A stretch of 64,000 bases of DNA. Source: Phycisphaerae bacterium (GTDB taxonomy: Bacteria; Planctomycetota; Phycisphaerae; Sedimentisphaerales; Anaerobacaceae). Positions 2,059-58,722 of this stretch are shown one piece after another. The translations under genes were made by a program, and so were the position numbers. The notes under the pieces were generated by a model. The model was not told the origin of the DNA, searched no databases, and saw only the letters and a list, made by a program, of their open reading frames with translations. Every line of letters begins with the position of its first letter. Position 1 is the stretch's first letter. The stretch is taken from assembly GCA_021736645.1 (NCBI GenBank), contig JAIPFM010000108.1, positions 1 through 64,000 of the forward strand, given 5' to 3'.

Positions 2059-3141
2059 CTACGGTGCCAAAAAGGCATCTGTGGCACAGGCTGGTACTTC
2101 ACAGCCTTTGATGAATCCACCGGGTGTCATATTTTGAAGCATGAAAATATCATCTTGAACACCTCTGCCCACCAGACGATGCTTGTAATACTCAATGGAA
2201 CCATCGTTGAACAGGACATTCTGTCCATGCCCACCATGGTTCAGACTGTTCTGCCTCAGAATCTTTTCATTCAAAGGAATGTGAACGCTCTCGGAGTAAT
2301 CCGAAGGCAAACTCTCCGCCAGAGGATTCTTATCTGCCATAAGCGCGGCCTGGCTGGTGAACTCTTTGGGCATCTTGTCACAACCTACGCGAAAACTATA
2401 ATCAATGTACTCCCTGCCTGGAAAGTCATGGAGACCTTGGCGACGCAGTGCCTCGGGATCGAGTTTTCGAGTCGTTTTTCGAGCAGGACACAGGAAGTTT
2501 ACCGGTTCAACATAGCGCCCCTTGGCCAGCAGAAACAGCCCGCGTGTATTGGAATGATTCTCACTGCCCTGATAGCCGACCTTCCACCACGGATCACCAG
2601 AAACCATCGCCACATAGGGTGTACGATCGCCGTAGTCAGACACATAATGAGCCATGCCCTGGCCCACATGGCCCAGCCTCGCCTGACATTGGGTTTGCCA
2701 CATTTTTTCACGGACCATGCCCAACAAGGGAACTGTCACGCTCAACAGGAACAGCAGAATCGCGGCCACTGCAGCCACTTGAACCGGTGAACGCCAAGTG
2801 CTCAGTTGAATCGGTGCAGAATTCAGGTCCTGCGCAATAACCGACTGAGCTGCAATCCCGGGATTCTCCTTTTGTTCATAAACTTTTGGCTTGGAGTGCG
2901 GTTGAGCATGGGATCTTTCAGTGAGCATCCGAATGGTCCGCTCTGCCAGACTGTCCGGGCAGGGCTGGCACTCCAGCGACTCAAGAGGAGATAGCATTGT
3001 TTTAAGTTGTTCGTAATAGAAACTGGCTGCATCAGGATCAGAGGCGATCAGCAACTCTGCTTCAACGTCTTGCTGCTCTGAAGCCAAGCCCATACAATGA
3101 TCGAACAACAACTGTTTCTGCTCATGACTTAACGAACCCAT
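2059..3141 (-). CDS. Anti-sigma factor with prepilin-like extracytoplasmic domain
   Basis: Probable membrane anti-sigma factor for the sigma factor encoded just upstream. The start is the ATG at 3141, which overlaps the sigma stop codon as TGATG and has GAGGA six bases upstream; a GTG at 3144 is less likely. Residues 1-75 are a cytoplasmic helical segment of the anti-sigma sort without an HxxxCxxC zinc motif. One membrane helix spans about 120-142. The part after the helix reads QTQCQARLGHVGQGMAHYVS and resembles the region behind the N-terminal helix of H-X9-DG prepilin-like proteins. A late HGG...NVLFNDGS segment (H-X10-DG) resembles their signature motif. No type III signal peptide is present, so it should not be processed as a pilin. 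Pairing with the sigma factor is inferred from overlap. Confidence 0.7.
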   Translation of the reverse strand: MGSLSHEQKQLLFDHCMGLASEQQDVEAELLIASDPDAASFYYEQLKTMLSPLESLECQPCPDSLAERTIRMLTERSHAQPHSKPKVYEQKENPGIAAQSVIAQDLNSAPIQLSTWRSPVQVAAVAAILLFLLSVTVPLLGMVREKMWQTQCQARLGHVGQGMAHYVSDYGDRTPYVAMVSGDPWWKVGYQGSENHSNTRGLFLLAKGRYVEPVNFLCPARKTTRKLDPEALRRQGLHDFPGREYIDYSFRVGCDKMPKEFTSQAALMADKNPLAESLPSDYSESVHIPLNEKILRQNSLNHGGHGQNVLFNDGSIEYYKHRLVGRGVQDDIFMLQNMTPGGFIKGCEVPACATDAFLAP

Positions 3142-3749
3142 CACATTTCCTCATTTTCAAGAACAGTTGTCCACTCTTTGGCAAACCTTGCCACTGCGGT
3201 GTGCAACCTGCTTTTAACCGTGCCGATAGGTATACTGAGGATGTCTGCCATTTGTTTGTAGGAAAATTTGTTGAAGTAGGCCATGATAATGATTTCTCTC
3301 AAATTATCCGGCAAATCTGTGATGATTCGGCTGACGCGACCAGAGCGTTCTTCCTGCTCTAATTGATTCTCAGGCTGCTCTTTATCGCTCGTGAGCACAT
3401 TGAGCATCTCCTCGAAGGACATCTCATCCGAGGGATTGATGGCACTGATTGAAATGGCAGACGTTCTCTGGGATTTTCTCAAAGCATCCTTGGCCTTGTT
3501 GGCCGCAATGGTAAACAGCCACGGGCGCAGCGGTCTACTCCTGTCAAAACTCCCCTGACTGGAGTAAAGCTGGAGAAACGTCTCCTGAAACACATCCTCC
3601 ACCAGGTCATGCTGGTTCAGAAATTGACGTAGAAATGCATACAAACCGTTTTTATACCGGTCTACCAGCTCTCTAAACGCCTGCTCATCGCCGTCACAGT
3701 AACGGTCCAGCAAATCAGCGTCTGTACTATCTTTTAAGGAGTCTGCCAT
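3141..3749 (-). CDS. ECF-family RNA polymerase sigma factor
   Basis: A 202-residue sigma-70 family protein with only regions 2 and 4, as in extracytoplasmic-function sigma factors. Region 2 covers about 12-85 (LLDRYCDGDEQAF, then DLVEDVFQETFLQLY, and RPWLFTIAANKAKDALRK for promoter melting and -10 recognition). Region 4 covers about 148-195 (LPDNLREIIIMAYFNKFSYK and IGTVKSRLHTA helix-turn-helix). An acidic linker of about 50 residues joins them. It overlaps the downstream anti-sigma gene, the usual sign of a sigma/anti-sigma pair. The regulon is not visible; no promoter motif was assigned. Confidence 0.92.
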   Translation of the reverse strand: MADSLKDSTDADLLDRYCDGDEQAFRELVDRYKNGLYAFLRQFLNQHDLVEDVFQETFLQLYSSQGSFDRSRPLRPWLFTIAANKAKDALRKSQRTSAISISAINPSDEMSFEEMLNVLTSDKEQPENQLEQEERSGRVSRIITDLPDNLREIIIMAYFNKFSYKQMADILSIPIGTVKSRLHTAVARFAKEWTTVLENEEM

Positions 3750-3807
3750 AATTGGTATTTCGCAAAACCGTTAGTATACGTGAATAAAGCCAGGTTGTAA
3801 ACCTATA

Positions 3808-21178: not shown

Positions 21179-21810
21179 AAGACAACCTCTTTTTTCTTCT
21201 CCTGCAGGACTAAGAGCTTGATCGTAATATCGCATTTCAACACCCTCTCCTGATTATTCATCATCTCAATATCCACCGATGTCAACCAGACTTGGTGGTC
21301 CTGATGTTGAAGCGCATCCATGAATAATGCCAGTTGATTGTATTCACCCAACACCGACAGGGTCGTTTCAACGGATTGTACATAGGTGGGATCCGATATT
21401 TCTCCAATCACGATCTGGCTTTTGTCCGAAGACGAATCCATCTTGGCAATCGAGCAGGTAAATTCCTCTGCCAATGTCTCAAGACTGGCCAGAAACACCT
21501 TCTTTTGTTCCGCACTGAAGACCGTAAAACCGATGACATCGAACTGTTGCCTCACATCTTCCAAGACCTTTTTTCGACCCACCAGCGTATTGCTGATATC
21601 GACCTGCTTCTCGATCATCTTGTCAATCGCCGGTTCGTAGTTTTGAACGGCCTGTAAATACTGAAGGTGCGGTGACACAATGGCCCCATACAAGGCCACA
21701 ATACAGACGACCAGACAGGCGGCATAGACCGCAAGTCTTGAAGATTTATCCAGTTGTGTCATCCTGTCAATCAGCACGTTCAAATCCCTACCGTGGTCTT
21801 TAGCTGGCAT
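21175..21810 (-). CDS. PilO/GspM-like inner-membrane assembly protein
   Basis: A 211-residue bitopic protein. One helix spans about 26-46 (LAVYAACLVVCIVALYGAIV). It is followed by a coiled-coil-like stretch (about 60-100) and a ferredoxin-like beta-alpha-beta C-terminal domain, the layout of PilO and GspM. PilO-type proteins pair with PilN and link the inner-membrane platform to the secretin. The gene overlaps the PilM-PilN fusion by 31 bp and the secretin by 4 bp, so all three are tightly coupled. Assignment rests on topology and position, since this family is poorly conserved. Confidence 0.75.
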   Translation of the reverse strand: MPAKDHGRDLNVLIDRMTQLDKSSRLAVYAACLVVCIVALYGAIVSPHLQYLQAVQNYEPAIDKMIEKQVDISNTLVGRKKVLEDVRQQFDVIGFTVFSAEQKKVFLASLETLAEEFTCSIAKMDSSSDKSQIVIGEISDPTYVQSVETTLSVLGEYNQLALFMDALQHQDHQVWLTSVDIEMMNNQERVLKCDITIKLLVLQEKKKEVVL

Positions 21811-23303
21811 TTAATTTCATACACATGGTGGCTATTGTACCCGCCTTTATGGTCCGTTTTGGCGAGATTGGCCGAGGCAATATTGACGGTCTGGCTCAGG
21901 CGAGTCACATAAGAAGTGACATCACTATAGGTCAGGGCCTTGCCTTGAATATAGACTTCATACTTATTCCGAGTATCCACGCTCGTCAAACAGACTCCCT
22001 TGGGCCTGCTGTTGTTGATATCGGAGAGTACACCGGGCCAGTTGACACTTTCCTGAGATGCCAGGATGCTTTTCAACTGCGTTGGGATCTTGCCCACCTG
22101 TTCAATCTGCGACTCCACTTCGCTCCGTGCCTTGACCACCTGGCCCACCGCACCCAGAGGTTTCTTGATCAGAATACGACTGTTGACTTTCTTTATGCTC
22201 GTCGCAATGCCAATGGTCGCGAGTGCCGAAAATAACATCATTACCGAGGCCGCAATCGCAGTCAGCAGCATCCCCTGCTTGACTTCTTTCTCTTCTCGAA
22301 TCTGCATGGGCAGCAGATTGACCTTCGGCACCGCCGAATGGCTGGACAGGGCCTGCATGGCATAGCCAATGGCCCCGATGGAGACCTGGCTCCTGGGTAT
22401 CTTTTGGGATATCTCCACCGGACAGTGAAGTTCCAGATTCTCGGACGTGATCACGTCGACGGATGTCTCGCCCATGGCCTCACATAATTGCATGCTGGCC
22501 GACTCCGGGAAAGAGGAGGCATCATCCGTCACCACATTGATTTTCCAGACATCACTGCGGTCCCCCACCTCCAACTCATAGTACTGCATAATCGTCTTGA
22601 TCTTATTGGCCAGGAAGACGCCCCGCTGTTTGGCATCGTCCTTCACGGCCTCGAGACTGTGGGATCTAATAAAATGAAGTGCCCGATCCTGCCACACCGC
22701 CAAGCAGACCTGATCATTTTGAATCATGGCCAACACCACATTACACGCGGATTGATGGGCCAGTGTCCTGTCATACAGGGCCCTGATATAGGCCACCAGA
22801 CTGGGCTCAACGGCCTGCACATCAAACCCCGCAGACTGGCACGCATTCACCGCAGATGCCACAGATTTATGATCGCCCACGGCCACAAACACACGCCTCG
22901 ACTCCTCCGTGGAATCAAGGCTCCGATAGTCGCTGACCGTTTTTGCCCCAGCCAAATTCACATAGTGCTTGATTTCTTTCTGCACATACTGTCCCAGATT
23001 CATGGACACCTCATTGGGCACATCCATGATCTGCACCAGAGACCGAGGGGAATAAAGAGAAAGGGTGGCCGTCCTGGCTGAACCGCATGTACGCTTGAGA
23101 TCATAGAAGATCTTTCTCAGACGTTTCGGGTCGCTGGTCAGGCCGTTCTTGATAAGGCTCTCCGGTATCGGTTGGCGAACTGCGCGTACCAGGTGTATCC
23201 CGTGCTTGTCCTGCCTGAGGCAGGCCAGGGCAACGGAGGAAGACGATAGCTCAAGGCCCACGGCCATTCTTGGTTTGAGCTTGATGTCAATTTTCTTTTT
23301 CAT
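21780..23303 (-). CDS. PilM-PilN fusion (GspL-like) of the pilus/secretion platform
   Basis: A 507-residue protein. Residues about 10-330 have the actin-like PilM fold (MAVGLELSSSSVALACL as phosphate-1 strand; VFVAVGDHKSV; GAIGYAMQAL near the end). Residue about 350 starts a membrane helix (LLTAIAASVMMLFSALATIG) and a periplasmic PilN-like domain (VNWPGVLSDINNSRPKGVCL). PilM and PilN are separate in type IVa pili and fused in GspL of type II secretion, so this is GspL-like in layout. It couples the cytoplasmic ATPase to the periplasmic PilO/secretin parts. It overlaps the PilO-like gene. Confidence 0.82.
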   Translation of the reverse strand: MKKKIDIKLKPRMAVGLELSSSSVALACLRQDKHGIHLVRAVRQPIPESLIKNGLTSDPKRLRKIFYDLKRTCGSARTATLSLYSPRSLVQIMDVPNEVSMNLGQYVQKEIKHYVNLAGAKTVSDYRSLDSTEESRRVFVAVGDHKSVASAVNACQSAGFDVQAVEPSLVAYIRALYDRTLAHQSACNVVLAMIQNDQVCLAVWQDRALHFIRSHSLEAVKDDAKQRGVFLANKIKTIMQYYELEVGDRSDVWKINVVTDDASSFPESASMQLCEAMGETSVDVITSENLELHCPVEISQKIPRSQVSIGAIGYAMQALSSHSAVPKVNLLPMQIREEKEVKQGMLLTAIAASVMMLFSALATIGIATSIKKVNSRILIKKPLGAVGQVVKARSEVESQIEQVGKIPTQLKSILASQESVNWPGVLSDINNSRPKGVCLTSVDTRNKYEVYIQGKALTYSDVTSYVTRLSQTVNIASANLAKTDHKGGYNSHHVYEIKCQLKTTVGI

Positions 23304-23337
23304 TGAATCTCAGTTCCGGTCATTCGCAGTGTGGCAA

Positions 23338-23772
23338 TTAGTCTTCATTGATCCTCAACGCGCCCAGGCGAATCTCGTGGGGCGGCGATAAAAAGAACGC
23401 CGTATATTCAGCCGACACCACACAGGTAAATCCCTGCGATGAGGTCCCTGCGGCCTCAATGTCACCCTGTTTAATGGTGACCGAATAGGTCCCGCCATTA
23501 AATGTCTTGTCTGAAAACCCGTCATCCCATTCCGAATCCAACCGCAATTGTGCCACGGCATCGTTGAGACCGGCCAGGGCCGTCATTCGGGCTTCCGCAG
23601 CATACACCTGATTCTGCATGATCTGGATATCCAGTGTAGACACTTCAAGTATGCCCATCACCACCGCAGACAACAATGCCACGATAAAGATCGCAATGAG
23701 CAGTACCGTGCCTGCCTGCCGGTGTCGCTTTCGCCAGTGATCTGTCAAAACACGCATAAATCCATCTTTCAC
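23338..23772 (-). CDS. Minor pseudopilin, PilX/GspK-like
   Basis: A 144-residue protein with N-terminal RQAGTVLLIAIFIVALLSAV, a prepilin-type helix that carries Ala-Gly before the predicted cleavage point and lacks the Glu5 of major pilins, as in GspK/PilX. The rest (NGGTYSVTIKQGDIEAAG) is beta-rich. GspK-type proteins cap the pseudopilus tip. The start is GTG at 23772 or ATG at 23757; neither has a strong ribosome site. It lies 34 bp upstream of the PilM-PilN fusion. Confidence 0.7.
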   Translation of the reverse strand: MKDGFMRVLTDHWRKRHRQAGTVLLIAIFIVALLSAVVMGILEVSTLDIQIMQNQVYAAEARMTALAGLNDAVAQLRLDSEWDDGFSDKTFNGGTYSVTIKQGDIEAAGTSSQGFTCVVSAEYTAFFLSPPHEIRLGALRINED

Positions 23773-23920
23773 AAACTGACAGCGTCAAACGCCTCTTTCC
23801 AAAACAAACCTTGGGCGCTATATCGACATTCTTTGAGAGGAAATGAATCTGGAAATGAATAAAAACAGTTCACACACGTATGAGAAGGTCCGTTAACAAC
23901 GCAGTCAGGACCGGACACTG

Positions 23921-24019
23921 CCCCCTGATCCCTGACCCCTGATAAAGATCCCTGACCCCTGATCCCTGACCCCTGATAAAGACCCCTGACCCCTGATCCC
24001 TGATAAAGATCCCTGATCA
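23921..24019 (-). repeat. Heptad repeat tract TCAGGGR directly after a stop codon
   Basis: Read on the - strand, TGA of the prepilin gene is followed at once by about eleven TCAGGGA/TCAGGGG heptads. The hexamer TCTTTA is inserted three times, after one, three and four heptads. The tract fills the gap between two pilin genes of one operon. An 83-codon frame through it (RDLYQGSGVRG-type repeats) is an artefact of the tract. No spacer-repeat alternation exists, so it is not CRISPR. Confidence 0.9.
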
Positions 24020-24418
24020 AGATCTCTTGGCCACCAGGGTGGTCAGGGTCACCAGGACCTCATCCGAAGTCAGATTGTTGTCCCCGTCGCGGTCAAATCC
24101 TACAGACACAGACAGGGTCTTCAGGGAGGGATCCTCATCATCGGACACATTGCAGAGATAATCGGTGGCCAGAGATAGCCCGCTTTCATCACGACTTGAA
24201 TTGAAATCATAAACCGTACAGGCCTGAATCTCACTGAGTTTGCCTTGAGCCAGGGCCAGGCTCCTGGTCTTTCTTTCCACGGCCCGACCGGTCACCTGAG
24301 CCGAGGTCATGGCTCTCAATATGGGCACGATTGCCACAAGCAGCAATGACGAGGCCACCACAACCTCCACAATCGTGATGCCGGCTTGTCGTCTGGTCTT
24401 GGCCTGTATCAGGTTCAT
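24017..24418 (-). CDS. Prepilin-like protein, PilV/GspI type
   Basis: A 133-residue minor pseudopilin. The N-terminus RRQAGITIVEVVVASSLLLV carries the cleavage Gly, a Glu at mature position 5 and the hydrophobic helix. The soluble part includes ALAQGKLSEIQA, typical of GspI/PilV. FDRDGDNNLTSDE looks like a Ca-binding DxDxDxN loop. Its ATG is 3 bp downstream of the GspH-like stop, so the two are coupled. The stop codon is followed at once by the TCAGGGR repeat tract. Confidence 0.83.
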   Translation of the reverse strand: MNLIQAKTRRQAGITIVEVVVASSLLLVAIVPILRAMTSAQVTGRAVERKTRSLALAQGKLSEIQACTVYDFNSSRDESGLSLATDYLCNVSDDEDPSLKTLSVSVGFDRDGDNNLTSDEVLVTLTTLVAKRS

Positions 24419-24421
24419 ACA

Positions 24422-24877
24422 TCAATCTTTCGTTAGAATCACGGTGCCTGTGGCAGCCACAAACGAAATCGTATAGGACTTGGTGCCATACGAGACTGTA
24501 ATTTCAGTGCCCTGCCCCTTGGTCAGATTTCCCATAGGCCCAAAACTATACTTCAGGCCGCCAGCAGTCACCGTGGCATGCTCATTAAATGTGTGGGTGT
24601 CCACAATCTCATGTGAGTCCAGATTGTCAATGCGATATCCCGCAGTGACCCCTGTATTCTCCATGACCATTTCATACCCTTTGCTATTGATGGCCGCATC
24701 ACGGAGGGCCATCGACTGGATGCGCCTCAAGTCAGTCACAAGCCTTCGAGCCTCGACTTCAGACTCCTTTTGAAAGATGGCGTCAAATGGCAGCCTTGGA
24801 ACGGTCACGGCAGTGATGACGCCCAGAATCAGGACCACCACCACAATCTCTACAAAGGTAAAGCCCTTTTTTCTCAT
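24422..24877 (-). CDS. Prepilin-like protein, GspH/FimT type
   Basis: A 151-residue pseudopilin starting at ATG 24877 (MRKKGFTFVEIVVVVLILGV), giving a short basic leader, Gly-Phe cleavage site and Glu5. An upstream in-frame start at 24958 would add 27 residues before the leader and is unlikely. The mature protein has EARRLVTDLRRIQSMALRDA, the helix typical of GspH/FimT, then a beta-rich domain. It is encoded between the GspG-like and GspI-like genes, the common minor-pilin order. Confidence 0.85.
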   Translation of the reverse strand: MRKKGFTFVEIVVVVLILGVITAVTVPRLPFDAIFQKESEVEARRLVTDLRRIQSMALRDAAINSKGYEMVMENTGVTAGYRIDNLDSHEIVDTHTFNEHATVTAGGLKYSFGPMGNLTKGQGTEITVSYGTKSYTISFVAATGTVILTKD

Positions 24878-24982
24878 GACACCACTCAATAAGCAAAGCG
24901 AGGATGACTCAACCGGGCCATCCTCGCAGTTTTCTCTTGCTTTAAACATACTGGCCATCCTCCGACCAGAGACCCTATCGTC

Positions 24983-25303
24983 TTAGTGCGAATGTGCAAC
25001 CACACGGTGACTATCTGCATCCCAGGCATAGGCTGTGCCAAGAGGACACGTAGGGGCTCCGTCAGGGAAGTAATCTTCACTGCCTGTCAGGTCAGCCAGG
25101 GCATCGGGCCATGAACCGACTGTGGCATAATACAATTCCAACTGGGAATTGATCAGGTCGATATTGGCGCTGCAGGCATTTGCCTTTGCGGTTTGTGTAC
25201 TTGTACTGATTCTGGGAATGGCCACAAAGGCCAATGCGCCAAGAATCAGAACCACCACCATCAATTCGACCAAAGTAAAACCTAACTGTCTCTTGCACCT
25301 CAT
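24983..25303 (-). CDS. Major pseudopilin-like protein, GspG type
   Basis: A 106-residue prepilin starting at ATG 25303 (MRCKRQLGFTLVELMVVVLI) with AAAGGAG seven bases upstream. It has a Gly-Phe cleavage site and Glu5. The soluble domain is short and ends DYFPDGAPTCPLGTAY...RVVAHSH. This ending is shared with a second pilin at 33630 (DYFPDGPPQCPFGTGY...RIIAHNH). Likely the main subunit of the filament built by the neighbouring ATPase and platform protein. Confidence 0.9.
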   Translation of the reverse strand: MRCKRQLGFTLVELMVVVLILGALAFVAIPRISTSTQTAKANACSANIDLINSQLELYYATVGSWPDALADLTGSEDYFPDGAPTCPLGTAYAWDADSHRVVAHSH

Positions 25304-25409
25304 TGTGTACTCCTTTCGCTCAGTATTTGTTAATATCGCCAAAACGATTTATAATGTTAGTGCCTGTATCGACATGGCACTTAAGACACTTAATCAGTTT
25401 ATTTAAAAC

Positions 25410-26606
25410 CTACTTCAGATGATTCATATAGTCGATCATGGGCAGATACACGGCCAATAATATGGTACCGATCAAAGACCCCATGGTGACTGTCAGGATG
25501 GGTTCCAGTTTGACCAGCAGGCTGCTGATAATGCGGTCTATATCCTTGTCCACGAACTCGGACCCCTTGATCAGCATCTCAGGCAATCGCCCTGCCTGCT
25601 CCCCGGAATCCGCCATGTGAATGATGATCGAAGGAAATATGTCATGCGATCCGAATGCCTTGGCCACGGCCGTACCGGCCTGGATCTCATCCTTTAATGT
25701 CTCTGTGATTTGAGACATGTGCGCATTGGCCGCCACCTGCGTGGCCACATCCAAGGCCTCCACCAGGGGGACGCCCACGGAAACCAGTGTGGCAAAGGTT
25801 CGATTAAAACGGGAAACCACCACCAGCCTATTCAGTTTGCCAAAATAGGGCAGTCGAAGTTTCAGGGTATCGACCCGTAGTCTATTGTTCGGAGCTTTCA
25901 CCCAGTGCCTGATCCCAAAGACAAGGATCAGTATCCCGGCTATGATCAGATACCACCAATTGTGAAACAGGGAGCTCACCATCACCAGAAACTGAGTCGG
26001 CCCGGGCAGCGGCACATTCATACGCGTGTAGATCTTGGAAAACATGGGAACCACAAACATGATCAGGGCCGAAACCACCACCCCGCAGACACAGACCACG
26101 ACCGTGGGATAGGTAAAGGCATGTTTCACCTTTTGATGGATCTGCATCTTGTTTTCAAGATACTGGGCCGTCATGTTCAGTACATTGCTGAGTTCACCGC
26201 TCGATTCTCCGGCCTCGATCATGCCCAGAAAATACGAGGAAAAGATCTGTTCGTACGGCTCAAAGCCCTTCCTGAGCGTGGCACCGGACGTCACTCTTTC
26301 TCGGACATCGGCAATGATATCCTTCAGTTGAAGATTTTCGGCCTGTTCTTGAAGGACCTCAAGGCAGTGCATCACGCCCAGCCCGGCAGAATACATCCCT
26401 GCGAACTTGAATGTGAATTCTACCACCTCGGCCTGAGTCACGCGCTTAGACGTACCCTGACGCTTCTTCTTCTTGTGCGCCTGAACCAGTGAATAGCCCA
26501 TCTTCTGGAGCTCATCCCGCACATCACTCACAGTGAGTGCATTGTCGATGGTCCCACTGAACTTTTGACCCTGATGATCTTTGGCTGTATAGGTATAGGT
26601 TGGCAT
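25410..26606 (-). CDS. gspF: Inner-membrane platform protein, GspF/PilC-like
   Basis: A 398-residue polytopic protein with two homologous GspF domains. The N-terminus MPTYTYTAKDHQGQKFSGTI is typical. FAGMYSAGLGVMHCLEVL and MIEAGESSGELSNVLNMTAQ mark repeat 1, while FATLVSVGVPLVEALDVATQ and MADSGEQAGRLPEML mark repeat 2. Three membrane helices are visible near 170, 220 and 375. It transmits motion from the ATPase to pilin assembly. It lies 22 bp downstream of gspE. Confidence 0.95.
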   Translation of the reverse strand: MPTYTYTAKDHQGQKFSGTIDNALTVSDVRDELQKMGYSLVQAHKKKKRQGTSKRVTQAEVVEFTFKFAGMYSAGLGVMHCLEVLQEQAENLQLKDIIADVRERVTSGATLRKGFEPYEQIFSSYFLGMIEAGESSGELSNVLNMTAQYLENKMQIHQKVKHAFTYPTVVVCVCGVVVSALIMFVVPMFSKIYTRMNVPLPGPTQFLVMVSSLFHNWWYLIIAGILILVFGIRHWVKAPNNRLRVDTLKLRLPYFGKLNRLVVVSRFNRTFATLVSVGVPLVEALDVATQVAANAHMSQITETLKDEIQAGTAVAKAFGSHDIFPSIIIHMADSGEQAGRLPEMLIKGSEFVDKDIDRIISSLLVKLEPILTVTMGSLIGTILLAVYLPMIDYMNHLK

Positions 26607-26628
26607 AATGATTCACGGTTTCAAAATG

Positions 26629-28323
26629 TTAATGATTCATATCGACGATTCGGCTGACTTCTTCCAGGGTCGTGCTTCTGTTCAACACATCGGTAATCGC
26701 ACTTTGCCCCAGGGTCATCATACCGTCTGACATGGCCTGGCGTTTAATCGCATCATCGCTGCCTCCGTCCACAATCAGATCCTTGATCTTCGGGGACACA
26801 GGCAGAATTTCGTAGATGCTCTTACGTCCCTTAAATCCCGTCTGGTAGCAATCGTTGCATCCGACACTCCGGGCCAATTCCGGCAGCGTGTCAGGCGTGC
26901 TCTGCCCCAAGAGGCGGCAGGCCTCTTCCTCACTGGCCGTATAGGATTCACAGCACTTCGGGCACACACATCGCACCAGTCGCTGGGCCACGGTGCCAAT
27001 CAAGGCGGATCCCACGAGAAACGGGGCCACGCCAATATTGACCAACCGGGAAAAGGCCCCTGCGGCATCATTGGTATGCAGCGTACTCAACACCAGATGG
27101 CCGGTTAATGCCGCACTCACCGCAATTTCGGCGGTTTCCAGATCACGGATCTCACCAATCAGAATCACATCCGGGTCCTGCCTGAGAATACTCTTCAAGG
27201 CGGACGCAAAGGTCAAACCGGCCACAGGCCGTGTCTGCACCTGGGTCACACCATTGAGCCGGTATTCCACGGGATCCTCCACAGTGATCACATTTCTCTT
27301 GGGCGTGCTCACGAGTTGAAGCAGGGAATAGAGCGTGGTGGTCTTACCGCTGCCTGTCGGGCCTGTCATCAGCAGCATACCATAGGGGTTGGACACCAGT
27401 TTCCGCAGTTTTTTATTGCTTTCCGTATCCAGTACGACGGAGTCAATGTCCCATTTCTGGGCATCTTTATCGAGGACACGAATCACGATTTTTTCTCCCC
27501 CCACAGAAGGGAGAGTCGACACGCGTAAATCGTACTCATGGCCCATGTGATTCACGGAAATATGACCGTCCTGAGGTACTCGCTTTTCGGCAATGTCCAT
27601 ACCGGCCTTGATCTTGATATGGGAAGTCACCTCATTCTGTACAGAGGCAGGGACGGTCAGGGTCTGCTGCAGCATACCATCCACGCGGTAGCGCACTCGC
27701 GTCCCTGCGGCCTGAGGCTCGATATGGACATCACTGGCCAGCGCATCAATGGCCCCGCGTACAATGGACGTCACCAGTTTGGTGATCGGATTGGACACCT
27801 CTCCGAACATCAGTGTCTGACCATCTGCCTTGGCGCCGGCTTCATTTTCTTTAAGCCGCATGGCCACAATAGCCTGTTTCGTCTCATTGGCCACATCGAA
27901 TTGGCATTGAATCGCCAGACGAATGGCATCGTATGTCGCAGCCACAGGCACAACTTGATAGCCGGTCTTGATCTCAATCAGGTCCCTGGCCATCAGGTCC
28001 ATGGGTGAGGACATGGCCACAAACAACTGGTCGTTTTCGACCTTGATTGGAATCAGGGTATGCCGGTCCGCCAGTTCAAAGGGAACCAGATGCGCCACCA
28101 CCTGTTCAATGGAATCCGGTTCCAGAGTAATGAAATCAATACCATGACTGACAGCCAACACCTTGAGAAACTGATCCTCAGTCAGGTACGATTGACCCTT
28201 GAGGATGGACAGCACGCTATGCCCTGTTTTCAAGTGCTCCTGGACCACCTCCTCCAGGGCCTGCTTGCTGAGCATGTCCTCCTGCTCCAAAAATGCAATA
28301 GTCGAGTCTTGTGTATCTATCAT
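26629..28323 (-). CDS. gspE: Assembly ATPase, GspE/PilB-like
   Basis: A 564-residue secretion/pilus ATPase if the ATG at 28323 is used; an ATG at 28374 would add 17 residues and neither start has a strong ribosome site. The N-terminal GspE_N domain (about 1-150) is followed by the ATPase: TGPTGSGKTTTLYSLL (Walker A), the Asp box VITVEDPVEYRL, ILRQDPDVILIGEIRDLETA (Walker B) and a His box STLHTNDAAGAFSRL. A tetracysteine zinc site (CVCPKC and CNDC) fits GspE/PilB extension ATPases. It opens the operon, 201 bp from the divergent LamG prepilin gene. Confidence 0.95.
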   Translation of the reverse strand: MIDTQDSTIAFLEQEDMLSKQALEEVVQEHLKTGHSVLSILKGQSYLTEDQFLKVLAVSHGIDFITLEPDSIEQVVAHLVPFELADRHTLIPIKVENDQLFVAMSSPMDLMARDLIEIKTGYQVVPVAATYDAIRLAIQCQFDVANETKQAIVAMRLKENEAGAKADGQTLMFGEVSNPITKLVTSIVRGAIDALASDVHIEPQAAGTRVRYRVDGMLQQTLTVPASVQNEVTSHIKIKAGMDIAEKRVPQDGHISVNHMGHEYDLRVSTLPSVGGEKIVIRVLDKDAQKWDIDSVVLDTESNKKLRKLVSNPYGMLLMTGPTGSGKTTTLYSLLQLVSTPKRNVITVEDPVEYRLNGVTQVQTRPVAGLTFASALKSILRQDPDVILIGEIRDLETAEIAVSAALTGHLVLSTLHTNDAAGAFSRLVNIGVAPFLVGSALIGTVAQRLVRCVCPKCCESYTASEEEACRLLGQSTPDTLPELARSVGCNDCYQTGFKGRKSIYEILPVSPKIKDLIVDGGSDDAIKRQAMSDGMMTLGQSAITDVLNRSTTLEEVSRIVDMNH

Positions 28324-28524
28324 GCGTAGGGCATCCTTATCATAAATCAGTAACAACACCCTATCGTCATACAAACATGCGGACTTTATGAAAAGATGGC
28401 TGTCCGGGGTCCACCCTGATACGGAGTTTAAAGCCGTGCCCCTAATGTCGCAGTGTTAAGTGACCGACACATCTGAGAAGAAATGCCAACATCGGGTTTC
28501 GTCCTTGGATCATGAAGAACGTCT

Positions 28525-31023
28525 ATGACCGGATACAGACACCATAAACAGCATCAGAACCGTTGTCATACAGGCACCACACTCGTGGAGTTGGTGATGG
28601 CCATCTCCATGATGGCCATTATCTTGACAACCCTGATCCCGCTGATCAGGAGTGTGAGACTCACTTGGGAAGCTTCCGAGAATAACGCTGAACGACTGCA
28701 GAACGGGCGTATTCTTGTGGACCATTTGTCCCTGTACCTGGCCTCTGCTGCCAGCATCGAAAGCGTCAGCAGTTCTGGTGACGTCCTCGGGTATCTCCAG
28801 TTTAAAGACTATGAGGACACGACATTCCGGTATGCTGTCAATGAATCAGGCTATGTTGAATATGGCGAACCCAATGCGATGAACGAGATAGCCGGTCCGG
28901 TCAGCCAGTTCCAATTGACCTGCTATGACGGCAATGACCTGTCAAGTCCCATAACGGATGTAAATGCCATGCGCTTGATTCACGTTGACGTGGCCTGTAC
29001 CAGCAGCATTGAATCCGATCAAGACATGACATTTACCACCTCAATATTCATAAATACGGACCGCGCCCTGACCACGCCCTTCTTTGAAGGCTGGTGGTGT
29101 ATGGATGACGACGGCGGTAAAATTGCCCTGGATTCCTCGGGCCACGGTCGTGACGGCACACTCATGAACATGCAGGGCAATGAATGGACCACCGGCGTGC
29201 TGGGCGGCGCACTGGAACTCAACGGCAGCGCAGACTATGTGGACCTGCCCATTGGGTCTGTCATTGAAACTGCCACGGATTGCACAGTGGCCGCGTGGGT
29301 CATGTGGTCCGGCCATGGTGACATATGGCAGCGCGTGTTTGATTTTGGCACTGGTACGACCAAGTACATGATGCTGACTGTGAACGATGGAAATGGCGAA
29401 CCGCGATTCAGCATCACAGACTCCGGCAGCACCAATGATGACGATGTGGACGCACCCGATCCCCTGTCTGCGGATTGGCACCATATGGCAGTGACCATTG
29501 ACAGCGCCAGCACCACCATCACACTGTACATTGACGGAGAGGCCGTTGCACAGAACACCTCCGCCCAGTATACTCCCAGTGACCTGGGTGAGACCACCCA
29601 GAATTGGCTGGGCAAATCACAGTATACTTACAATCCCAACTTTAACGGAATATTGGATGACGTGCGCCTCTACAGCCGCGCACTCTCTGCCGAGGAAATC
29701 AGTGATCTGGTGTCCGATGCTCATATGGTGATCTTCAAAGACTTCAAAGAAGCCAAACTCACCAAAAACAAGACATCTCTTAACATTCATACGCCCTGTA
29801 AAATACCGGGTACTGTGGTCCCTGTTTCCATGTTGGGATCGTGGACAACCGGCCTGACGCACACTGCGCCCTCCGGACAGAATCGCGTGCTGATCGTGAC
29901 TGCCCACGCAGAAGCGTATGGCGCGGATGTCAAGCTGGACTCTATGACATATGGCGGGCAGGCCATGACCAAGGTGAGAGACGAGAGTAAATATAGTCCC
30001 ACGGCGTACGCGTATGTGGTGGCCTATATGCTCGATGAAGCAGGCATTGCCGCTGCCACCAGCAACACCCTTGTGCCCACGTGGAACAGCCCGCCGGATT
30101 ACGTGGGCTACAGCAGTGTCTTTCTAGAAAATGTGGATCAAATCACACCCATAGGCGACACTGAAAAGAAAGACACTGATTGGGAGTGGACCCTGTCTAC
30201 CAATGAACTGGTAAACGATTGGGGCGATATGGCCATTCTGGCAGGCACGGCAGGGAATACAGGAACCTATTGGGTCAATAATGGATTCACAGAAGCATTA
30301 GAGTTGTCCATCACATCCAGTGATGGTGTGGTGGGGTATGTCTCGACCAATGGCAATGATGTCATACCAAGCATCTCGCACAGCAATCCATTTCTTCGTC
30401 AGGTACTGGTTGGCTTGGTGGTCAAGGTCCTGGACCCTGCGCCCATTACCTCGATAGAAGGAGATCTCCTGATCGCTGCAGTCGCCGTAGATGGACTGGA
30501 AACGATTTCCGCACCGTCCGGAGGCGGCTGGACACTCCTGTCCCATGGCGATGGCGCCGGCAAGATCACATTCGGCGTGTGGGCCAAGCTGGCCGCCGCC
30601 TCGGAACCAGCCTCTCATACCTTTACCTGGAACACAGATGAGCAGGCCTATGGCTGGATCATGCGGTTTCAAGGGCATGACCCGGCCAATCCGATTGACG
30701 TCATGGATTCCAAGGACCTTTGGGATGATTCCACACCGCCCTGCCCATCCGTGACCACCACAGTCAACCATGCCATGATCCTGCGTCTCGGAGGGTTTGA
30801 CGAAGACGATATATATGTCGACGACACGGGATTATCCGGTCATACGACCATTACCATGGATACGAGCAAGTGGTCCAGTGAAGCAGCCTCAGGCGGCGCA
30901 GCATACATGTATCAACTGGAAGCAGGCAACACTGGCGCTGAAAGTTTTGTATTGAGTCGTAAAGAGGAATACCGCACTGTCACCCTGGCCATAGCACCGG
31001 CTCCACCCGCCAGCAGCGAGTAG
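28525..31023 (+). CDS. Very large prepilin-like protein with LamG domain
   Basis: An 832-residue protein with a GspJ/PilW-like N-terminus (HTGTTLVELVMAISMMAIIL: Gly cleavage site, Glu5, hydrophobic helix), where such pilins are usually about 200-250 residues. After the pilin part (to about 185) comes a concanavalin-like LamG domain (about 190-395, with GWWCMDDDGGKIALDSSGHG, ATDCTVAAWVMWSG, DWHHMAVTID and ILDDVRLYSRALSAEEISD). Two further beta-rich regions (about 415-640 and 645-832) resemble repeated adhesin-like domains. It is transcribed away from the pilus operon from a 201-bp divergent region, so a pilus-displayed, ligand-binding tip protein is inferred. Confidence 0.85.
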   Translation: MTGYRHHKQHQNRCHTGTTLVELVMAISMMAIILTTLIPLIRSVRLTWEASENNAERLQNGRILVDHLSLYLASAASIESVSSSGDVLGYLQFKDYEDTTFRYAVNESGYVEYGEPNAMNEIAGPVSQFQLTCYDGNDLSSPITDVNAMRLIHVDVACTSSIESDQDMTFTTSIFINTDRALTTPFFEGWWCMDDDGGKIALDSSGHGRDGTLMNMQGNEWTTGVLGGALELNGSADYVDLPIGSVIETATDCTVAAWVMWSGHGDIWQRVFDFGTGTTKYMMLTVNDGNGEPRFSITDSGSTNDDDVDAPDPLSADWHHMAVTIDSASTTITLYIDGEAVAQNTSAQYTPSDLGETTQNWLGKSQYTYNPNFNGILDDVRLYSRALSAEEISDLVSDAHMVIFKDFKEAKLTKNKTSLNIHTPCKIPGTVVPVSMLGSWTTGLTHTAPSGQNRVLIVTAHAEAYGADVKLDSMTYGGQAMTKVRDESKYSPTAYAYVVAYMLDEAGIAAATSNTLVPTWNSPPDYVGYSSVFLENVDQITPIGDTEKKDTDWEWTLSTNELVNDWGDMAILAGTAGNTGTYWVNNGFTEALELSITSSDGVVGYVSTNGNDVIPSISHSNPFLRQVLVGLVVKVLDPAPITSIEGDLLIAAVAVDGLETISAPSGGGWTLLSHGDGAGKITFGVWAKLAAASEPASHTFTWNTDEQAYGWIMRFQGHDPANPIDVMDSKDLWDDSTPPCPSVTTTVNHAMILRLGGFDEDDIYVDDTGLSGHTTITMDTSKWSSEAASGGAAYMYQLEAGNTGAESFVLSRKEEYRTVTLAIAPAPPASSE

Positions 31024-57909: not shown

Positions 57910-58722
57910 ATGATCATGACGTAAGTAGGGGATCGAAAAAATGCATTCACACTCATTGAGTTGCTGGTTGTCATTGCCATCATCGCCGTATTAATGGGCA
58001 TTCTGATGCCTGCACTGACCCGTGTCAAGGACCAGGCCAGGGAAGTGTCCTGCAGGGCAAACCTGCGTCAATACGGTGTGGTTCAGGGTATGTACCTGAA
58101 TGACTTTGAAAGCAAATTTCCAAATCCGTGGAGAAGCCTGGTCGCAACAGAAGCCCCGGTGTCCGGTTATCAGCGTTACTGCCGCTGGCATGATCCGCGC
58201 TATCTGCCGGATGGCCCCCTGTGGAAATACATGCCGGAAGTCAAGGTGAATCTGTGCCCGTCCTTTAACGTACTGGCCAATTCCTATGCGGACATGCACC
58301 CGTCACACGTGGCGACCAATCCCATTGATCCGGTCTATTCGTACAGTATGAATGCCTTCCTCGGCAATGGCGACGGAACAGGCGGGGGTTACAAGGCCAA
58401 AAACCTGGCTCAGGTGACACGCCCCCACGCAGAAGTCTTTTTCTTTGGTGAAGAGAATATGTGGTCCAGGCCGGGCAATTCAAATGTGCTCAATGACAAT
58501 GCCCTGTGCGGCGACGGCAGAGACTGGTTTGGTACATTCCATCAGGCCAGAAAGACAAAAGACGGCAATCTGAATCTTGGCTTCACCAATCTCGTGTTTA
58601 TAGACGGCCATACTGACAAAGTCACATCTGCACTCAAAGAAGACACCACGGATAATTCTGAAAAGGAATGGGGTCAATACGAAAAGCATTCATGGCCAAG
58701 CAAACGCAGGCCCAGCTTATAG
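57910..58722 (+). pseudogene. Prepilin-like H-X9-DG-type protein with broken 5' end
   Basis: The frame reads NAFTLIELLVVIAIIAVLMG, a textbook prepilin leader, then SCRANLRQYGVVQGMYLNDF and a late NLVFIDGH related to the H-X9-DG signature (about 265 codons). No usable start exists in frame. ATG 57910 is followed after four codons by TAA (57922-57924), and nothing but GTA, GGG, GAT and similar codons lies between that stop and the leader. A ribosome-like AGGGG precedes an ATG at 57941 that is out of frame by one base. A one-base deletion, a nonsense change, or a sequence error explains this. Starting at TTG 57961 would lose the cleavage site. Confidence 0.65.

Follow-up and report, generated by a model that had tools for sequence, protein, structure and literature searches.

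The overlapping sigma/anti-sigma gene pair and its conservation

The window analysed here is a stretch of 64,000 nucleotides from a Phycisphaerae bacterium (contig JAIPFM010000108.1, positions 1 to 64,000), and the coordinates of the features discussed below are listed in Table 1. The initial annotation had proposed that two genes on its reverse strand form an overlapping sigma/anti-sigma pair, and both of these open reading frames are present at the positions that it gave. Judged from its sequence, the product of the first gene is unambiguously an ECF sigma factor possessing Sigma70 regions 2 and 4 only, for which the matches in a Pfam scan (Sigma70_r2, 6.9e-17, residues 28-96; Sigma70_r4_2, 8.1e-12, residues 138-188) are well above the cut-off. 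If the anti-sigma gene starts at the GTG at 3144, then the overlap between the two genes is 4 nt. However, 87% of the aligned family members have a gap at residue 1 and 96% have Met at residue 2, and due to this the ATG at 3141 is preferred as the start, which would probably result in a protein of 360 aa and a TGATG junction with the sigma gene.

Table 1. Coordinates of the features of the sigma/anti-sigma locus and of a pilus-like gene cluster in the window
Feature	Residues	Position	Strand	Basis or remark
ECF sigma factor	202 aa	3141..3749	-	Pfam Sigma70_r2 and Sigma70_r4_2
Anti-sigma factor (outer domain prepilin-like)	361 aa from GTG at 3144	2059..3144	-	Open frame
Probable -10 box of housekeeping type (TATACT) of the operon		3773..3778	-	TATAAT enrichment across loci
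Class I anti-sigma-type domain	1-83	2896..3144	-	AlphaFold2 and Foldseek
Flexible linker	84-115	2800..2895	-	pLDDT < 50; length differs among relatives
Single long helix (membrane span and extension)	120-170	2635..2787	-	Equivalent to pilin alpha-1
Extracytoplasmic prepilin-like head	171-361	2062..2634	-	Head-only profile match; ectodomain model
Cys153	153	2686..2688	-	Probable disulfide partner Cys219
Cys219	219	2488..2490	-	Partner of Cys153
H-X10-DG motif HGGHGQNVLFNDG	303-315	2200..2238	-	Variant of H-X9-DG
Leader-bearing pseudopilins of the 21780-31023 cluster		24017-24958
Platform protein of the 21780-31023 cluster		25410-26606
Assembly ATPase of the 21780-31023 cluster		26629-28374

The operon is probably transcribed from a housekeeping promoter. 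The sequence TATAAT is found within 75 nt 5' of the sigma gene in 31 of 54 loci, where about 5 are expected by shuffling, and if its near variants are also counted then 44 of the 54 loci carry a -10 box ahead of this gene. No obvious ECF autoregulatory motif was detected ahead of the operon in these 54 loci, and autoregulation of the operon by an ECF factor was rejected, as the promoter search gave a -10 of the housekeeping type only.

The search at the order level covered 61 genomes (60 relatives and the genome containing the window), and orthologues of the anti-sigma protein, mostly single-copy and full-length and showing 27-45% identity in the alignment, were identified in 57 of them. The sigma orthologues of the order are 42-70% identical, and in nearly every locus examined their gene immediately precedes the anti-sigma gene, mostly with an overlap of 4 nt. 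At the level of the class, the anti-sigma family is present in 172 of 198 genomes (137 of 154 among the high-quality ones), and the orthologous sigma gene is upstream in all 13 class-level loci (L098-L110), and also in L191 and L194-L200. Since such a share of the genomes from both the order and the class carries the family, the pair is, on the basis of its sequence conservation, a core system of the class. Within 13 neighbourhoods, neither a third conserved gene beside the pair nor a pilus gene linked to it was found, and the idea of a conserved third partner was rejected, as nothing besides the pair is shared by these neighbourhoods.

The outer part of the anti-sigma protein is related to prepilins

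The AlphaFold2 model of the full anti-sigma protein, built with a 55-member alignment (pLDDT 85), consists of four helices followed by a disordered linker, a single long helix and then a compact head. The initial annotation had likened the outer part to prepilins of the H-X9-DG kind. If this resemblance were due to only a generic hydrophobic helix and chance motifs, then the protein would give no match in single-sequence scans, and those against Pfam and NCBIfam are indeed empty; because of this, a prepilin claim needs evidence from profiles. In a search of its own genome, residues of about 119-186 of the protein match some 25 prepilin-like ORFs, the aligned part being the membrane helix and the stretch after it. 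At the family level, DUF1559 matches 31 of 55 members (E up to 0.5, best 1.3e-6) and pre_pil_HX9DG matches 16 of 66 ectodomains (E up to 0.01, best 1.7e-4). In profile-profile comparisons, the helix and head together gave a probability of 99.4% over 193 columns against 17 true prepilin-like proteins from the same genome, and 99.8% over 237 columns, extending to the C-terminal D-x-F-L tail, against a specific prepilin subfamily (referred to below as the core prepilins). As the hydrophobic helix might by itself drive such similarity, it was removed, and the head alone gave 99.1% (6e-19) against the core prepilin subfamily and 95.9% (6e-9) against general prepilins, with the controls (the sigma family and five column-shuffled profiles) giving 0.1-0.3%. 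These decisive values and clean controls refute the explanation by a generic helix, to which we assign virtually no probability. The profiles thus place the C-terminal region with prepilin families and not in an unrelated fold, and they indicate that the helix and head are homologous to the H-X9-DG/DUF1559 prepilin-like proteins over their whole length. The match of the helix profile to alpha-1 of Geobacter PilA (E 5e-4 in a PDB profile search) agrees with the proposed prepilin-like nature of this domain. The ectodomain model is of high confidence (pLDDT 92), but by Foldseek the head finds no match in PDB, alpha-1 alone being matched to PilA by profile, and the detailed fold of the head is thus without a solved precedent.

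The sequences of the two most relevant segments are CQARLGHVGQGMAHYVSDYGD (residues 153-173) and NHGGHGQNVLFNDG (residues 302-315). In the latter, H303, G307 and Q308 are invariant in the 55 members from the order, and D314 and G315 are present in 53 and 50 of them, respectively. The H-X9-DG motif that had been suggested for this protein is present as a variant; however, its exact spacing is not, and the H-X10-DG spacing seen in its place is conserved in most of the order. At least one leader-bearing prepilin from the same genome (L004, HKSGYNVAYSDG region) shares this longer spacing. Of 66 sequences, 60 have both Cys153 and Cys219, 5 have Ser at both positions, and in one a single one of the two is replaced; this pattern suggests a disulfide between them, which probably exists. 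The strongest conservation is observed not in the helix but in head motifs (viz. PWWKVG, SNTR, NPLFE, GQN and DG), which are also conserved in real prepilins. The invariant C-terminal D-x-F-L-A-P was considered as an anti-sigma-specific degron, but this idea was rejected, as the tail also occurs in true prepilins from other orders.

Residues 120-170 form one uninterrupted helix of about 51 residues in both the full and the ectodomain models. The statement that the leader is missing is borne out: of the 55 order members, 42 have Trp at position -1 and none has Gly there, and hence no prepilin-peptidase site is present and the protein is barred from processing into a pilus. A missing Glu5 had also been noted, and this holds for the window protein, in which the position is occupied by Gln122, but not for its relatives, as 38 of 66 have Glu or Asp here. 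The equivalent of Pro22 is Pro139, and a proline is kept in 43 of 66. The simplest picture from these sequences is that an anti-sigma domain and a linker have taken the place of a prepilin's cytoplasmic leader, with the predicted N-in/C-out orientation retained.

In comparison with known proteins, this outer part shares with the H-X9-DG/DUF1559 proteins of Planctomycetes (TIGR04294, PF07596) the long alpha-1 helix, the C...NL..I...Y..D segment, the paired cysteines, and the H..GQNV-DG, D[DN]I[FYW]T and D-x-F-L-x-P tail motifs. It differs from them in lacking a leader and peptidase site, in having an anti-sigma domain in place of the leader, and in its H-X10-DG spacing.

The cytoplasmic domain resembles class I anti-sigma factors

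The N-terminal domain is modelled with helices at residues 7-18, 23-35, 37-55 and 64-80, with pLDDT values of about 79-97 per 10-residue block. When the full model was compared by Foldseek with PDB (350,542 chains), the sole meaningful matches, heading the list, were to four different anti-sigma factors, RsiW, MucA, RskA and RslA. The E-values for these matches are poor (0.98-2.5), probably reflecting the small size of the anti-sigma domain, and the case rests upon rank and target TM-score; with ranks that are convincing and E-values that are weak, residues 1-80 are thus modelled as a class I anti-sigma (ASDI) fold. The Hx3Cx2C zinc motif is absent from this domain. However, this is not disqualifying for an ASDI, as about 44% of ASDIs also lack the motif and non-zinc variants, viz. 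RskA and RseA, are known (PMC7406223). The cytoplasmic three-plus-one helix domain, the single span, the extracytoplasmic sensor and the overlap of the gene with that of its ECF sigma factor are all features in common with RsiW, RseA, RskA and MucA; in contrast to these systems, the sensor and the membrane helix are here a prepilin-like protein.

In two genomes from other classes of the phylum, homologous anti-sigma proteins of the zinc (Hx3Cx2C) type that have a short prepilin-like ectodomain are found (L112:1441-2334, plus strand, and L114:1198-2313, minus strand), in both cases with an ECF sigma gene upstream. They could stem from an ancient fusion or have arisen separately a second time.

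The protein might instead be no anti-sigma factor but an unusual membrane pseudopilin encoded beside a sigma gene, and in favour of this, other prepilin-headed membrane proteins that cannot be cleaved do exist: L192:842-1765 (plus strand) encodes a prepilin-like head with a different N-terminus, and L078:3628-4815 (minus strand) carries such a head on a zinc-ribbon membrane protein, neither of them having a leader or a linked sigma gene. However, the anti-sigma fold retrieved by Foldseek, the zinc-type anti-sigma domain of the out-of-class relatives, and the almost unvarying position next to an orthologous ECF sigma gene all argue against this interpretation, and we regard it as very improbable. 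In contrast, we are highly confident of the architecture and pairing proposed here, viz. a cognate ECF sigma factor and a membrane-bound class I anti-sigma factor with a prepilin-like outer part.

Relationship to the core prepilins and the pilus machinery

The profile of the anti-sigma family scores the core prepilin subfamily at 69-106 bits and other prepilins at 20-68 bits, with no overlap. In a phylogenetic tree, the ectodomains of the anti-sigma proteins group in a single clade (SH-aLRT 100), which falls on the core-prepilin side and not on that of the other prepilins (88). Full-length matches to the core prepilin are found in most relatives (in the window's own genome at L007 and L009), and its locus is conserved in many relatives of the order. 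These observations, the closeness by both score and tree and the wide occurrence, would be expected if the anti-sigma protein were a dedicated monitor of the core prepilin through a paralogous lateral interaction. However, the genomes of several families of the class (f8, f10) have retained the anti-sigma protein and contain generic prepilins only, the full-length core-type prepilin being absent, and due to this the core prepilin should not be interpreted as an obligate partner, a proposal that is thereby weakened. Further, the D-x-F-L-x-P tail also occurs in true prepilins from other orders (L188, L190), and since it spans orders the similarity between the anti-sigma protein and the core prepilin may be old and not specific to a partner. 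We therefore consider a dedicated monitor of this kind to be unlikely.

Several other features of the core prepilins may be recorded here. Their gene lies beside an aconitase-like gene in L150, L151, L157, L159, L160 and L161, and in several small genomes it is located between a UDP-GlcNAc-pyrophosphorylase-like and an aconitase-like gene (these names being our reading of the sequences). Three core-type prepilins (L076:821-2110, L077:1967-3232 and L079:2482-3804, all on the minus strand) possess a C-terminal Hint (intein/hedgehog-like) domain, which in L077 matches Pfam PT-HINT (1e-6) and Intein_splicing (0.003); they end in VVRDW or VVRDF, and based on these sequence characteristics are possibly self-processing.

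The 5' leaders of the core prepilin genes (e.g. L122:2754-2956, minus strand; L140:2479-2659, minus strand; L143:1218-1485, plus strand) contain a conserved structured mRNA, which is weaker in the copy L126 of the window's own genome. A first helix, GAGATTCGC/GCGAATCTC, is directly 5' of the ribosome-binding site, and a second one of about 16 bp (CCGGCCGTTCTTAGGC / GCTTGAGAACGGTCGG in L140) crosses it, which implies either a pseudoknot or a pair of alternative states. Covariation is seen in both helices, with double changes in 17 of 25 pairs and none of 500 shuffles as high; the leaders were gathered with the pattern of the first helix, so the support for this helix is somewhat biased, and the second helix was found later. 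A search of Rfam with 16 of these leader loci gave nothing credible.

A prepilin peptidase is present in 56 of 61 relatives, and because the window's own genome encodes this peptidase along with S2P proteases and numerous assembly ATPases and platform proteins, the machinery for both pilin traffic and regulated proteolysis is at hand. The window also contains, at 21780-31023, a type IV pilus/type II secretion-like cluster that includes a PilM-like protein, the pseudopilins, platform protein and assembly ATPase listed in Table 1 and, on the plus strand, a LamG-like protein bearing the leader LVELVMAIS. The prepilin frame indicated earlier near 57.9 kb is real, as AFTLIELLVVIAIIAVLMG is present; this prepilin-like ORF (57920-58722, plus strand) has an intact AFTLIELLVVIAII leader, before which no in-frame ATG, GTG or TTG occurs, and this anomaly of its start could be due to a frameshift, a sequencing error or an unusual start.

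Proposed mechanism and its significance

The best overall explanation of these results, towards which we lean, is an ECF/anti-sigma pathway in which a non-cleavable prepilin paralogue serves as the sensor. The cytoplasmic four-helix domain, as modelled, would hold the sigma factor, the pilin-alpha-1-like helix would cross the inner membrane, and the prepilin-like head would be outside, with N in and C out. The helix and head would then contact what real prepilins contact, the candidates for this being other prepilins, the platform or processing machinery, or the extracellular ligand of the prepilins. A change at this contact may expose the anti-sigma protein to regulated proteolysis, a site-1 cut being followed by that of an S2P protease, and the sigma factor would be freed. 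That release takes place by such proteolysis we consider fairly probable; that what is sensed is the prepilin system or a ligand of prepilins is about as probable as not.

The initial annotation had suggested that pilin pools or a surface-layer substrate could be sensed. Two deductions from the sequences, that the protein is a paralogue of a conserved prepilin and that it has lost the cleavage site, fit with the sensing of pilins, and the retention of the anti-sigma protein in families without the core prepilin and the absence of linkage to pilus genes speak against it. The main rival to sensing of the prepilin system is that the head was recruited as a receptor for something other than pilins. 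If this is the case, then the prepilin-derived domain is simply a stable periplasmic receptor for a ligand or an envelope stress that is unrelated to pilins, and the helix reflects only ancestry. The conservation of the protein even where the closest prepilin subfamily is missing, the unlinked nature of the pair, the variability of the Glu5 position (Gln in the window protein), and the stronger conservation of the head motifs than of the helix are all in accordance with this. However, a receptor of this kind needs neither an uninterrupted helix nor the proline at position 22 (43/66) or an acidic residue at position 5 (38/66), yet these are kept, and the head motifs in question are conserved in real prepilins as well. 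We regard the recruitment of the head as a non-pilin receptor as quite possible, though short of probable.

A functional analogue for the sensing of prepilins would be the PilS-PilR system of Pseudomonas, which responds to the levels of PilA in the inner membrane (PMC6058289), as it too is a membrane regulator that tracks inner-membrane pilin. However, PilS is a sensor kinase regulated by pilin and not a homologue of pilin, whereas the regulator described here would itself be pilin-like. The RsgI proteins of Clostridium are likewise a family of membrane anti-sigma factors whose members sense different substrates (PMC12203970); these sensors respond to substrates of another kind, and a relationship to prepilins is not described there. 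No literature joining anti-sigma factors with prepilin or DUF1559 domains was found in the open papers searched, though a mention in a supplementary table is possible.

Planctomycetes contain dozens of H-X9-DG/DUF1559 prepilin-like genes that are without known function; in Planctopirus limnophila there are 68 such paralogues, two of which are reported to be essential (PMC10632474). We tentatively propose, as a possibility that is somewhat short of even, that there is a class-wide pathway in which a non-cleavable prepilin paralogue acts as the anti-sigma factor and signals the state of the prepilins or the pseudopilus, be it their pool, their assembly or contact with a surface, directly to an ECF sigma factor dedicated to it. 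A single-copy regulator that has a prepilin-like domain and is conserved in most of the class offers a direct genetic handle on the function of the H-X9-DG/DUF1559 proteins and on how they are monitored. Its prepilin-like ectodomain adds to ECF/anti-sigma signalling a type of sensor that is absent from the literature searched, and the conserved pair points to a hitherto undescribed means by which the condition of the cell surface is sensed.
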